Below are positions 11,151 through 20,370 of a stretch of DNA of 20,736 bases, piece by piece. The notes under the pieces are model-generated. The model was given only the letters and a program-made list of their open reading frames with translations, had not been told where the DNA came from and made no database searches. Origin of the DNA: a virus. The DNA lies in IMG/VR virus record IMGVR_UViG_3300017726_000112, positions 1-20,736 of that record. One strand, written 5' to 3'. Position numbers and translations under genes: made by a program. Numbering within the stretch: position 1 is the first letter of the stretch; each line of letters starts with the position of its first letter.

Positions 11151-12635
11151 TCAATACCCGAATGATGGATCACTAGCTTGAAAACCAGTGCGTTGTTTTG
11201 CTGGGTTGTAATCCCATATGCTGCTACGTGGACGTGTCATTATACCATACCTTAGAGCGTCATAAAGGTGATCCTCTGCGTGAGTATCAACATCTTCTGG
11301 ATTCTTCTTATCCAGAGGAATACTAGGAATCTGTGCAATAGTGTTAGTGCAGTTGTCCATAAACACAAGTTGTGGCTTCTCAGTGAACTCATCCACCTTC
11401 AATCGCCTATGTATCTCGTTCTTACCTGCGACACGTGAGCCTCTTGACCTGTCAGACGGACGCCAGCGGCATCCCTTTTGATTCATCTGCTCTGCCAAGC
11501 TAGGCCCAGTGTCGCCACGGTTGTGCCATAAAGAACTATCTAGCACCCCGTATCTCATTGTACCATCTTTTGATTCTGCTTCCAAGATTAAATCTGCTAA
11601 GTCAGAAGCTGTAACTTTAGAGACATACATCTCACGGTATACAATTACTTGTTCGTCAGGAGCTACAGCAAACCACAGAACGCCAGTGTAACTACCATAC
11701 CCGTAATCACAAGCCCTAAACTTTGCCCAAGAGTCAGGGATCTCGAATGCGTCTACGACATGTACTTTTCTGTCAAACTCTGGAAAAGCGGCACCCTCAT
11801 TAATATCCCAGTTACCTTCAAGTAGCTGCTTACGCTGATGCTCCGGCAGAGAGAGAAGCATTGCTTCATAGTCTCCAGAGTCAGATAAGTACGGATTGTC
11901 GAATAGAGAGGCTGGAATAAAGCGTCTTTTAAATAGAGGCTCACCCTCTTTACTGTGACCTTTAGGGAAGGTGATTGTTTCACCTGAGTCGATATCTGTT
12001 GCCCAAAAAGCTTTGCCTGCTCTTTCAGGGTCAATAAACATTTTCTTAACCCAAGCATGTCCTGCTCCTCCGGGGTTTGTTGTGGCTCTCATGTAAAGCC
12101 CAAGCTCTGACGCATGTGCAGACCTCAAGCGTGATCTCATATAACCCCAAGCGTAAGGGCTAGTCCATTGTGTAAGTTCGTCAAAACCAATCCAATTAAA
12201 AGCCTGCCCTTGGTAACGGGTAACATCTGTGTCTTTATCCAAGTACGACATCCAGAGGCGACCACCTCTAGGAGATATCCATTGCGACTTACGCTCTGAC
12301 CATTTGATTCCCGGTACTGCACGTGGGTACAACTCCTGTGACTTCTGTATTAGTTCTCTTAGTTCTTCTGTAGTGTGACGTACAAGTAGTCCAGAGAAGT
12401 TAGGATCATTCAAACCGTGTAGTGGATCAGCTAACATAGCGTATGACTTACCACCACCAGCGGCACCACCATAAAGTACTTCACGCTCTGAGGCACTAAG
12501 GAAGCTTGTTTGGGGGCCGGGGTTTGGCTTGAACACAACATCCATAGCCGCATCTACATCATACTCAGGGGCTTTGACTTGCGCAGGAACAGTCTCTACC
12601 TTGGGGGTGGCGACTACTTCAACTGTCTCTGTCAA
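11151..12635 (-). CDS. terL: Terminase large subunit (packaging ATPase-nuclease)
   Basis: Walker A is clear (LYGGAAGGGKSYA, ~55-66 of the short form), Walker B is WIGFDE (~150), and the RNase H-like nuclease acids are seen in RACDYGYG (~307), GVLDSS (~365) and AEDHLYDALRYG (~457). It packages DNA through the portal and cuts the concatemer. The frame stays open to TTG 12758 (535 aa), but that part lies fully inside the overlapping HTH gene and is a Lys/Ser-rich reading of its bases. I prefer TTG 12635, giving 494 residues and a 17-base overlap; ATG 12545 is another option. The ribosome site is weak in every case, so the start is uncertain while the identity is not. Confidence 0.88.
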   Translation of the reverse strand: MTETVEVVATPKVETVPAQVKAPEYDVDAAMDVVFKPNPGPQTSFLSASEREVLYGGAAGGGKSYAMLADPLHGLNDPNFSGLLVRHTTEELRELIQKSQELYPRAVPGIKWSERKSQWISPRGGRLWMSYLDKDTDVTRYQGQAFNWIGFDELTQWTSPYAWGYMRSRLRSAHASELGLYMRATTNPGGAGHAWVKKMFIDPERAGKAFWATDIDSGETITFPKGHSKEGEPLFKRRFIPASLFDNPYLSDSGDYEAMLLSLPEHQRKQLLEGNWDINEGAAFPEFDRKVHVVDAFEIPDSWAKFRACDYGYGSYTGVLWFAVAPDEQVIVYREMYVSKVTASDLADLILEAESKDGTMRYGVLDSSLWHNRGDTGPSLAEQMNQKGCRWRPSDRSRGSRVAGKNEIHRRLKVDEFTEKPQLVFMDNCTNTIAQIPSIPLDKKNPEDVDTHAEDHLYDALRYGIMTRPRSSIWDYNPAKQRTGFQASDPSFGY

Positions 12636-13035
12636 TTTCTGCGTATGCCCCGACCCCTTTGGCTTCAAGCTTTTCGATTTCCTCAAGGGTTTCTTTGAGC
12701 CACTTGGCAAGCTTGCGTTTAATTGCAATTGTTTTTTTACGTCTTTGCTCAACTTCAATTCGCCTCTTTAAGCCTGTATGGCCTATACTACGACCAGTTT
12801 CTCTGCTTAGCCAGTGGGCTACTGCACGATAACTATACTGCTTTAAGTGGCGCTTGGCAAGTTCTAAAGCTTCTAGTTCAGACTCAATAGGTACAAGTAG
12901 TTTGTCGTTGTCAGGATGTAGCTCGTAACCAAAGGGGATACGTTTTGTTACCCTTACAATGGTATGCCATTTCTTGTTGTGGTTCTTTGGCGGTAACGGT
13001 AGCTGCCAAAAACCTAGATCTCTTTCAGGTATTAT
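12619..13035 (-). CDS. HTH protein lacking a canonical start codon
   Basis: An open frame of 138 codons plus stop with convincing protein text: IPERDLGFWQLPLPPKNHNK, KRIPFGYELHPDNDKLLVP, ELEALELAKRHLKQYSYRAVA, HWLSRETGRSIGHTGLKRRI and a basic C-terminal helix ending GVGAYAEIDRDS. YSYRAVAHWLSRETGR..GHTGLKRRI looks like a helix-turn-helix of the kind found in phage packaging or recombinase-like proteins. No ATG, GTG or TTG occurs in frame between the small terminase stop and the end of the gene. An ATA at 13035 (or 13032) has AGAAGG 9 bases upstream and overlaps the upstream stop as ATAA, so ATA initiation is possible; so is a -1 frameshift from the small terminase frame, or a sequence error. 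The role may be DNA recognition during packaging, beside the terminase genes. Confidence 0.6.
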   Translation of the reverse strand: MIPERDLGFWQLPLPPKNHNKKWHTIVRVTKRIPFGYELHPDNDKLLVPIESELEALELAKRHLKQYSYRAVAHWLSRETGRSIGHTGLKRRIEVEQRRKKTIAIKRKLAKWLKETLEEIEKLEAKGVGAYAEIDRDS

Positions 13036-13400
13036 TCGTTTGAACCTTCTTTTGGTGGCAGATAGAAGATGCCTCCGCCAGATGTTACGTCTACTTTGTC
13101 TACCTTACCAAGTCCTGCACGATCAAGCAAGTCTTTTGCTGCTACCATCTTTTCTTTAATGCCTAACTCTGTAGGGTCATACAAAGCACCTACCATAGCC
13201 ATAGCTGCCTTAGGTGCAGTACGTGCAAAGTACGTGCGTGTCTTCTCACCAATCTCATCCTTGAGAGCCTCAACAATAGCAGCCGTACTTGAAGCAGGAT
13301 CATAACCTGCCAGTTTCTTAGCTGCTACTGCATCACCGTTAGCCTCATCAAAGAGTACCTCTAAGAAGCGCTGTTGCTTTTCTGTTAATGCTCTAGCCAT
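13032..13400 (-). CDS. terS: Terminase small subunit-like protein
   Basis: 122 residues, ATG 13400 with AAGGA upstream. LTEKQQRFLEVLFDEANGDAVAAKKLAGYDP is the recognisable N-terminal pattern of small terminases (LTxKQxxF...A...AGY), forming the DNA-binding helix-turn-helix. It is followed by ALKDEIGEKTRTYFARTAPKAAMAMV and KEKMVAAKDLLDRAGLGKVDKV, helices that oligomerise in this family. The tail GGGIFYLPPKEGSNE is typical of the large-terminase contact. It precedes the HTH gene and the large subunit. It is slightly shorter than many small terminases. The reading frame ends just where the following frame begins in -1 register. Confidence 0.7.
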   Translation of the reverse strand: MARALTEKQQRFLEVLFDEANGDAVAAKKLAGYDPASSTAAIVEALKDEIGEKTRTYFARTAPKAAMAMVGALYDPTELGIKEKMVAAKDLLDRAGLGKVDKVDVTSGGGIFYLPPKEGSNE

Positions 13401-19459: not shown

Positions 19460-19648
19460 ATGAATAAATCAAAAGTTATGCCTGATGGATGGACTAAAAA
19501 TATTCACTTGGATGCAGGTGCATACGTGCTTGACGTTAATGTGAAACCGGATACTTGCTTTGACGATAGGTTCAAGGCGTGGTGCAATGATGAAAATGAA
19601 ATACTAATAATTGACGGATGGAATGTATCAATTTTGGAGGTGGAATAA
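19460..19648 (+). CDS. Small protein of unknown function (62 aa)
   Basis: 62 residues, ATG 19460 with GGAGAGA upstream. MNKSKVMPDGWTKNIHLDAGAYVLDVNVKPDTCFDDRFKAWCNDENEILIIDGWNVSILEVE. A beta-rich small protein with paired hydrophobic strands (YVLDVNV, EILIIDGWNVSILEV) and two Cys. The end overlaps the next start as TAATG. No family recognised. Confidence 0.65.
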   Translation: MNKSKVMPDGWTKNIHLDAGAYVLDVNVKPDTCFDDRFKAWCNDENEILIIDGWNVSILEVE

Positions 19649-20370
19649 TGTCACAATATAAACTCTTGGGCGTAGGCACTAACGCAAAAACTGTCAAAGG
19701 TGACGGGGATGAATACCTCACAGCCATTTTGTATATGACACCCTATAAAGTCATGGTTGACAACAAGTTGTATAACTCATGCAGCATGGCAGTTTTGGCT
19801 GGATGCATTGAAGCTTGCCTAAATACCGCTGGGCGTGGTGCAATGAATAGCGTTCAATCGGCACGAGAACGCAAAGCGCAATGGTTTTATAGTGATCGTG
19901 ATGGTTTCATGCGCCAAGTCATGCAGGACATTGCCAAGTTTCAAACATACTGTAACAAGCGCGATATTCAGCCTGTGGTCAGACTAAACGGCACAACAGA
20001 CATTCGCTGGGAATTGATAAAGCTTGATGGCTATACCATCTTTGAATTATTCCCACGGGTGCAATTCTATGACTACACAAAGATCAGCAATCGCAAGGTC
20101 TCACATATCCCCAACTATCATCTGACTTGGAGCTATAGCGGGGCGAATGCTACCTATGCGGCACAGTTGGATAAAGCTTTGGCGGCTGGTATGAATGCGG
20201 CTGTGGTATTCCGTGAAGCAATGACCCAAGAGACATGGCAAGGCTTGCCTGTGGTCAATGGTGACGCTGATGATCTGCGGATCTTAGACCCAGAAGGTGG
20301 TCACATCGTGGCGCTGTATGCCAAGGGCAAGGCCAAGCGTGACACATCCGGCTTTGTGGTGGATGTGTAA
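19648..20370 (+). CDS. DUF7227 / gp88-like phage protein
   Basis: 240 residues from ATG 19648, with GGAGG upstream, chosen over an in-frame ATG ten codons earlier that lies in the preceding gene. Early part: YKLLGVGTNAKTVKGDGDEYLTAILYM. Then a block with Cys (NSCSMAVLAGCIEACLNTAGRGAMNS), helices, VVRLNGTTDIRWELIKLDG, FELFPRVQFYDYTKISNRK, NYHLTWSYSGAN, NAAVVFREAM, LPVVNGDADDLRILDPEGGHIVALYAKGKAKRDTSGFVVDV. The line FPRVQFYDYTK...NYHLTWSYS...VVNGDADDLR...LYAKGKA is a signature I recognise from gp88/DUF7227-type proteins of many phages. Biochemical role unknown; conserved Cys near the N-terminus might bind metal. Member of the divergent block, probably early. Confidence 0.65.
   Translation: MSQYKLLGVGTNAKTVKGDGDEYLTAILYMTPYKVMVDNKLYNSCSMAVLAGCIEACLNTAGRGAMNSVQSARERKAQWFYSDRDGFMRQVMQDIAKFQTYCNKRDIQPVVRLNGTTDIRWELIKLDGYTIFELFPRVQFYDYTKISNRKVSHIPNYHLTWSYSGANATYAAQLDKALAAGMNAAVVFREAMTQETWQGLPVVNGDADDLRILDPEGGHIVALYAKGKAKRDTSGFVVDV

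Follow-up and report, generated by a model that had tools for sequence, protein, structure and literature searches.

The window, that is, the whole 20,736-base virus record from IMG/VR that was analysed, carries on its minus strand the small terminase gene terS, a reading frame without a canonical start codon, the large terminase gene terL and a portal-like gene, in this order (Table 1). TerS matched phrog_2538 (E 2.6e-05); its match to Pfam Terminase_2 (E 0.0082) lay below the Pfam cut-off. The portal-like gene was named from its position adjoining terL, as in the CRP phages. The last codons of terS hold a Shine-Dalgarno (SD)-like site as well as the first base of the predicted AUA start codon of the following gene, the putative gene for a protein of the helix-turn-helix (HTH) type.

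Table 1. Positions of the features around the terS-terL junction in the window
Feature	Position	Strand	Remarks
Small terminase gene terS	13032..13400	-	ATG start, TAA stop at 13034-13032
SD-like AAAGAAGG within terS	13045..13052	-	Identical in 141/141 ATA-type relatives
Predicted AUA start codon	13033..13035	-	Overlaps the terS stop as ATAA
HTH-type protein gene	12619..13035	-	138 codons plus TGA, without canonical start
Large terminase gene terL	11151..12752	-	Likely start TTG 12752 inside the HTH gene; TTG 12758 in the list of open reading frames

The sense codons of the startless frame extend from 13035 to 12622 and are followed by the stop at 12621-12619, with no ATG, GTG or TTG among them. 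The initial annotation had placed such a frame between the two terminase genes and had described its ATA as overlapping the terS stop, the motif AGAAGG as lying 9 bases upstream of ATA, and the frame as -1 to terS and open past the end of terS. All of this was found in the window, with AGAAGG at 13050-13045. Among the stop-to-stop frames of the window with at least 80 codons, only the one at 12619-13104 (161 codons) contains none of the three canonical starts. Two explanations had been offered, an ATA start or a -1 frameshift; our analysis supported the ATA start and lent no support to a slip near CCAAAAG.

The product of the frame is probably a small helix-turn-helix protein and is predicted to bind DNA. 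An alignment of 36 family members revealed the motifs W-x-L-P, PFGY and L-x-P-I and a stretch Y-S-x-R-x-V-A-x-W-L, followed by a basic C-terminal part. The succession of PFGY and the HTH-like stretch is what we take to be a resemblance to the DNA-binding recombinase domain of large serine integrases. An AlphaFold2 model (33 rows; mean pLDDT 82.9, pTM 0.64) consisted of two short strands, two helices and one long helix. When the model was compared with the PDB by Foldseek, the top five rows were DNA-bound serine integrases, all weak matches with E-values of 0.8-1.9 (best 0.83). In VIA-align, integrases reached Z 2.6-3.9, one of them with Z 3.9 at 4.8 A over 76 residues, and a TEA domain scored above them (Z 5.7, 2.1 A, 76 residues). 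The integrase family phrog_95 was matched by two of the 36 members. For the window member, the PHROG search gave no match and Pfam nothing above its cut-off, Phage_Mu_Gp27 (E 0.0098) falling below it. A sequence search of the PDB with the HTH protein yielded no match up to E 1, and a profile comparison with TerS revealed no relation. Four matches with E 1.8e-06 or better, 113-160 residues long, were obtained from a viral library; three were unnamed and one uncharacterized. The HTH protein thus bears a weak resemblance to the recombinase domain found in large serine integrases and, in contrast to these enzymes, has no catalytic domain in its 138 residues. That it acts in packaging or late regulation is a guess based on where its gene lies.

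A tblastn search of a phage collection with the HTH frame gave 11 records, from the Roseobacter phages CRP-207, CRP-603, CRP-2, CRP-345, CRP-1, CRP-13 and CRP-9, HMO-2011 (two records), Pelagibacter phage HTVC033P and one uncultured podovirus; ten of the 11 were fetched. With 83% identity to the HTH frame of the window, CRP-207 exhibits the ATA arrangement in an isolate genome and is the sole ATA-type isolate among the ten phage records. Whereas the window and CRP-207 use ATA, the other fetched CRP phages (CRP-1, CRP-2, CRP-9, CRP-13, CRP-345 and CRP-603) and HMO-2011 start the HTH gene at ATG. This ATG lies five bases downstream of the first terS stop base in CRP-603 and CRP-2, and five bases upstream of it in HMO-2011 and CRP-345. 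HMO-2011-type phages are described as a dominant and broadly distributed marine group (PMC9038755). HMO-2011, CRP-207 and CRP-603 share with the window the order terS, HTH gene, terL and portal. Two homologues lack a matching annotation. In HTVC033P (L084, 2116-2319) terS and terL flank an unannotated HTH homologue, and ATGs in its frame occur within the terS tail; in the uncultured podovirus MW202701 (L087, 2501-2803) no CDS runs across the homologue except a 99-base hypothetical one and the start of terL.

Further relatives were collected in six overlapping protein scans of IMG/VR, each contributing its 80 best matches out of 156 to 598 relatives, the total for the last scan being a lower bound. 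In the first scan, the best 80 (78-100% identity) contained no ATG, GTG or TTG from the in-frame stop upstream to the beginning of the match. The census input comprised 483 sequences, namely 482 loci and the window, and a terS stop at most 90 nt from the conserved W-x-L-P motif (its position hereafter W) was used as criterion. On this basis 56 sequences were dropped: 52 with a terS stop more than 90 nt from W, mostly of the HMO-2011 type, three without terS, and HTVC033P without the W motif. The remaining 427 included duplicate contigs from the overlap of the scans; counts are given for the 294 distinct junctions among them.

Reading from the in-frame stop upstream as far as W, an ATG or GTG was present in 152 of the 294 junctions and absent from 141; a single junction (L196) had a TTG, which overlaps a TGA stop. 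ATA overlapping the terS stop was found in all 141 junctions without ATG or GTG, as compared with two of the 152 with one (L139 and L140). In these two, the in-frame ATA overlap is joined by an ATG six bases downstream, possibly an intermediate state. Relative to the terS stop, the last ATG or GTG before W in the 152 relatives lay at -5 to +10 nt. The ATA is found within a few bases of the normal ATG of sister phages. Homologues starting deep inside the frame with a normal codon, which the initial annotation had regarded as a point against its reading, were not seen among these 152. Four loci (L395-L398) start the HTH gene at a GTG that follows the first stop base by five bases, and G, not A, precedes their terS stop.

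The overlap in the 141 ATA-type junctions takes the form ATAA (111) or ATAG (30), the terS stop being TAA or TAG in the same numbers and never TGA, which would create ATG. The canonical overlaps ATGA and GTGA were both absent (0/141). The last terS codon was GAA in 133 junctions, CAA in six, GTA in one and TTA in one; its first two bases vary, and thus only the A is kept. Outside the ATA set, the base before the terS stop in the 53 rows of the same frame (52 with ATG or GTG, and L196) was G in 49, T in two and A in two. The codon aligned with the ATG of sister phages was likewise variable (ATA 71, GTA 35, AAA 19, ATT 7, ATC 5, AGA 4) and is therefore not a kept start. Starts at this codon or at the second codon were rejected because neither is conserved. 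Among nine positions tested around the start, ATA was the only near-cognate codon in 141/141, but codon W+16 further downstream is also near-cognate. From ATA the frame spans 133-152 codons to its stop in every one of the 141. The pattern CCNAAAGAAGG-4N-AACGAATGA, which represents the ATG version of the junction, was matched once in viral_contigs, by a contig that carries neither gene, and none of 80 loci taken from a broad ATGA pattern scan with at least that many matches contained terS or the HTH gene.

A tree was computed from columns of terS and HTH that lie at a distance from the junction for 133 of the 294 junctions (62 with ATA), after removal of six short rows and near-copies. The ATA rows fell into two groups of 43 and 19, with two changes on the best tree, one of them forced by well supported branches. 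An independent-pairs test of ATA versus ATG found one to two pairs (p = 1, not significant); the exclusion of ATA and ATG rests on few events and cannot be tested by contrasts. Synonymous constraint was assessed at 16 terS columns of Glu, Lys or Gln conserved in at least 50 of the 62 ATA rows. No third-position change had occurred at the two SD codons (Lys AAA and Glu GAA) or at the last terS codon, as against 3-14 changes at each of the other 13. The terS stop in the 62 rows had changed nine times at its third base and never at its second, and the A of AUA was without change on the tree among ATA-type phages. In 23 canonical rows of the CRP-603 type, the SD Lys codon had changed three times and the last codon twice, and the SD Glu and Asn codons not at all, which indicates that the ATA type does not account for all of the synonymous constraint.

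With a dN/dS of about 0.1, the HTH protein evolves under purifying selection. Values in the HTH frame were 0.12 for codons W to W+24, 0.08 for W+24 to W+60 and 0.22 for W+60 to W+90, a segment that partly overlaps terL. The two other frames, read from W-6 to W+24, gave 1.2 and 1.5 and contained 2.5-2.7 stops per row. For codons W-6 to W-1 the estimate was saturated and gave no number. The retention of ATA in 141/141, the constraint on the SD and ATA, and the dN/dS confirmed at the level of sequence that the startless frame is more than a chance occurrence. Comparison of the relatives thus established the missing canonical start, the invariant AUA, the absence of synonymous change at the SD codons and the coding constraint; from these we infer that AUA is the codon actually read.

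To score the SD, the 22 bases upstream of the start were paired with the 16S tail and the most favourable pairing was taken; only ATG or GTG counted as start in the canonical control rows. Pairing energies ranged from -6.0 to -9.3 kcal/mol in 62/62 ATA rows. Canonical rows reached -6.0 or stronger in 12 of 71 cases, 11 of which were among the 23 rows of the CRP-603 type. The site of the window scored -6.0, its eight pairs being interrupted by a single mismatch. Five of 13 other genes in the window have stronger pairing. The SD is therefore solid and kept, yet not exceptional.

The reading that we favour, with a probability of roughly 0.8, is that the HTH gene is real and is translated from an AUA overlapping the terS stop, with its SD inside terS. 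The ATA and the upstream AAAGAAGG, each invariant in the 141 distinct relatives without ATG or GTG, argue for this part of the earlier proposal. Initiation at AUA is probably coupled to terS termination. A ribosome finishing TerS at UAA (UAG in relatives) would be positioned over AUA; AAAGAAGG just upstream would pair with the 3' end of the 16S rRNA and hold the small subunit, and the initiator tRNA would start at AUA despite the mismatch at the third base. The yield would be low relative to an AUG start, perhaps about a tenth, as in the poor-medium reporters described in the accessible part of PMC13009471. Such a low yield may have been selected, keeping the HTH protein scarce relative to TerS.

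Four other explanations were considered. The AUA might be reached by ordinary binding of the small subunit at the SD, uncoupled from terS termination, the ATAA overlap being incidental. That the SD pairing matches several ordinary window genes is consistent with this, as are the AUA starts of Staphylococcus aureus, which the available text does not describe as stop overlaps (PMC13009471). The retention of the overlap in 141/141 and the location of the SD inside translated terS codons speak against it, and we consider uncoupled initiation rather unlikely. A start further downstream appears improbable. Candidates are the second codon, which is ATA in 66/141 but otherwise AGT, GTA, GCT, AGC and others; a TTG 7-8 codons into the frame, at the position of a conserved Leu, which is a possible start in the 15/141 that have it; codon W+16 (Ile), which is ATA, ATT or ATC in 141/141 but would cost the protein its conserved N-terminus; and an internal ATG, GTG or TTG, as annotated in CRP-207. 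The first canonical codon after W is missing from 31/141 and lies anywhere from codon 12 to 88 elsewhere, and the strong constraint on codons W to W+24 also counts against a later start. In GenBank, gp62 of CRP-207 begins at codon 88 of the HTH frame (52 aa). This start drops strongly constrained codons and is best read as a gene-finder artefact: with an AUA start, gene finders limited to ATG, GTG and TTG would miss the HTH gene or truncate it, as in gp62.

A programmed -1 frameshift, near CCAAAAG as proposed in the initial annotation or at another place in the terS tail, would yield a TerS-HTH fusion and leave AUA without a role as start. The -1 frame is open through the end of terS in the window, and the conserved AAAGAAGG could serve as an SD-type frameshift stimulator. 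In the relatives, however, stops in the HTH frame occur 3 nt (4/141), 6 nt (22/141) and 15 nt (20/141) before ATA. Owing to those at 3 or 6 nt, a slip at CCAAAAG would terminate immediately in at least 26/141. The last terS codon is variable, and no slippery heptamer X-XXY-YYZ was seen in the upstream frame (read by eye, about 13060-13032). Moreover, relatives have an ATG start for this gene at the corresponding junction, frequently in a different frame, which makes a frameshift needless. The fusion was rejected on account of the stops close upstream of ATA, and we give frameshifting very little credence. An assembly error or a pseudogene, of which an absent start could be a sign, has a negligible probability. 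The same junction is found in many contigs and in the isolate genome of CRP-207, which makes a sequencing error very unlikely, and both the dN/dS of about 0.1 and the frame that stays open from ATA in all ATA-type relatives contradict decay.

Bacteria very rarely start translation at AUA, and a few of their genes are known to do so. Stop/start overlaps of four bases are common. The S. aureus genes infC, ccpN and citZ resemble the HTH gene in combining an AUA start with SD pairing (PMC13009471, as far as accessible). There, AUA-start reporters gave about 10% of AUG in poor medium, ccpN reached up to 30% in rich medium, and non-canonical starts were accompanied by extended SDs. The odd start of ccpN is conserved between S. 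aureus and B. subtilis, as the ATA of the HTH gene is invariant among the relatives without ATG or GTG. The S. aureus genes differ in being cellular and, in the accessible text, without a described stop overlap, whereas the AUA of the HTH gene is built from a UAA or UAG stop in a phage packaging operon. In Escherichia coli, ATT was the seventh best start at about 0.3% of ATG (PMC10666635, in the part available), from which AUA would be expected to be very weak there; this counts against an AUA start. With ATGA/GTGA termination-reinitiation, as portrayed in the available parts of PMC6728339 and PMC10666635, the HTH junction shares the 4-nt overlap, the SD in the upstream gene and the linked neighbours. 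The usual 4-nt overlap in these sources joins a UGA stop to an NUG start, while the stop of the HTH junction is UAA or UAG, and the overlapping start is consequently AUA. Non-canonical starts (ATT) are raised in the accessible text of PMC10666635 only for the rare -5 overlaps. Streptomyces sigR likewise has a weak non-canonical start in an operon: its GTC start is coupled to rsrA, sets the operon stoichiometry and is repressed by IF3 (PMC5472188, available in part). In that system the odd start belongs to the first gene and control by IF3 was put to the test, whereas in the phage operon it belongs to the second gene.

An AUA start and a stop/start overlap are each known, and their combination was not seen in the literature searched. 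Among the matches listed for the open PMC literature, neither a phage gene with an AUA start nor a conserved AUA start made from a UAA or UAG stop in a phage gene was found. The marine-phage packaging operon provides a well supported sequence-comparison case of a conserved AUA start in phages. With the ATG-using sister phages as controls, it is a natural system for asking whether near-cognate starts are better tolerated in reinitiation than in fresh initiation, and whether stoichiometry is set by weak starts. More tentatively, and rather less likely than not, the HTH gene may represent a distinct kind of phage gene with a start carved out of the upstream stop, in which a ribosome ending at UAA or UAG would re-read the overlapping AUA with initiator tRNA and the weak start would be selected. 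Selection rather than mere tolerance is suggested because the single change from TAA to TGA would give ATG and is unseen in 141 distinct sequences. If this held true, the HTH gene would respond to termination and to the state of IF3, a DNA-binding packaging accessory would be kept scarce, in constant proportion to TerS, and gene finders would overlook genes of this kind in other phages.

The next gene of the operon, terL, most likely starts inside the HTH gene at TTG, also a weak codon. A TTG in the terL frame 256 bases past W (12752 in the window) was present in 139/141 ATA-type and 61/65 CRP-603-type junctions, and a TAG stop two codons before it in 81/141 and 58/65, respectively; the conserved TTG and the nearby stop together point to this start. 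In a survey of the 133 tree rows, the terL motif was found in 87. Four rows of the HMO-2011 or CRP-345 type have a terL ATG one codon further, beside a one-residue insertion in the HTH protein. In the GenBank records of CRP-207 and CRP-603, terL is annotated to begin after the HTH stop. The portal-like gene can start at TTG 11154 on the minus strand, overlapping the terL stop as TTGA (11151-11154), which would be another weak start in the operon. At the right end of the window, a plus-strand frame of 250 aa (19618-20370) runs opposite in direction to the late genes.
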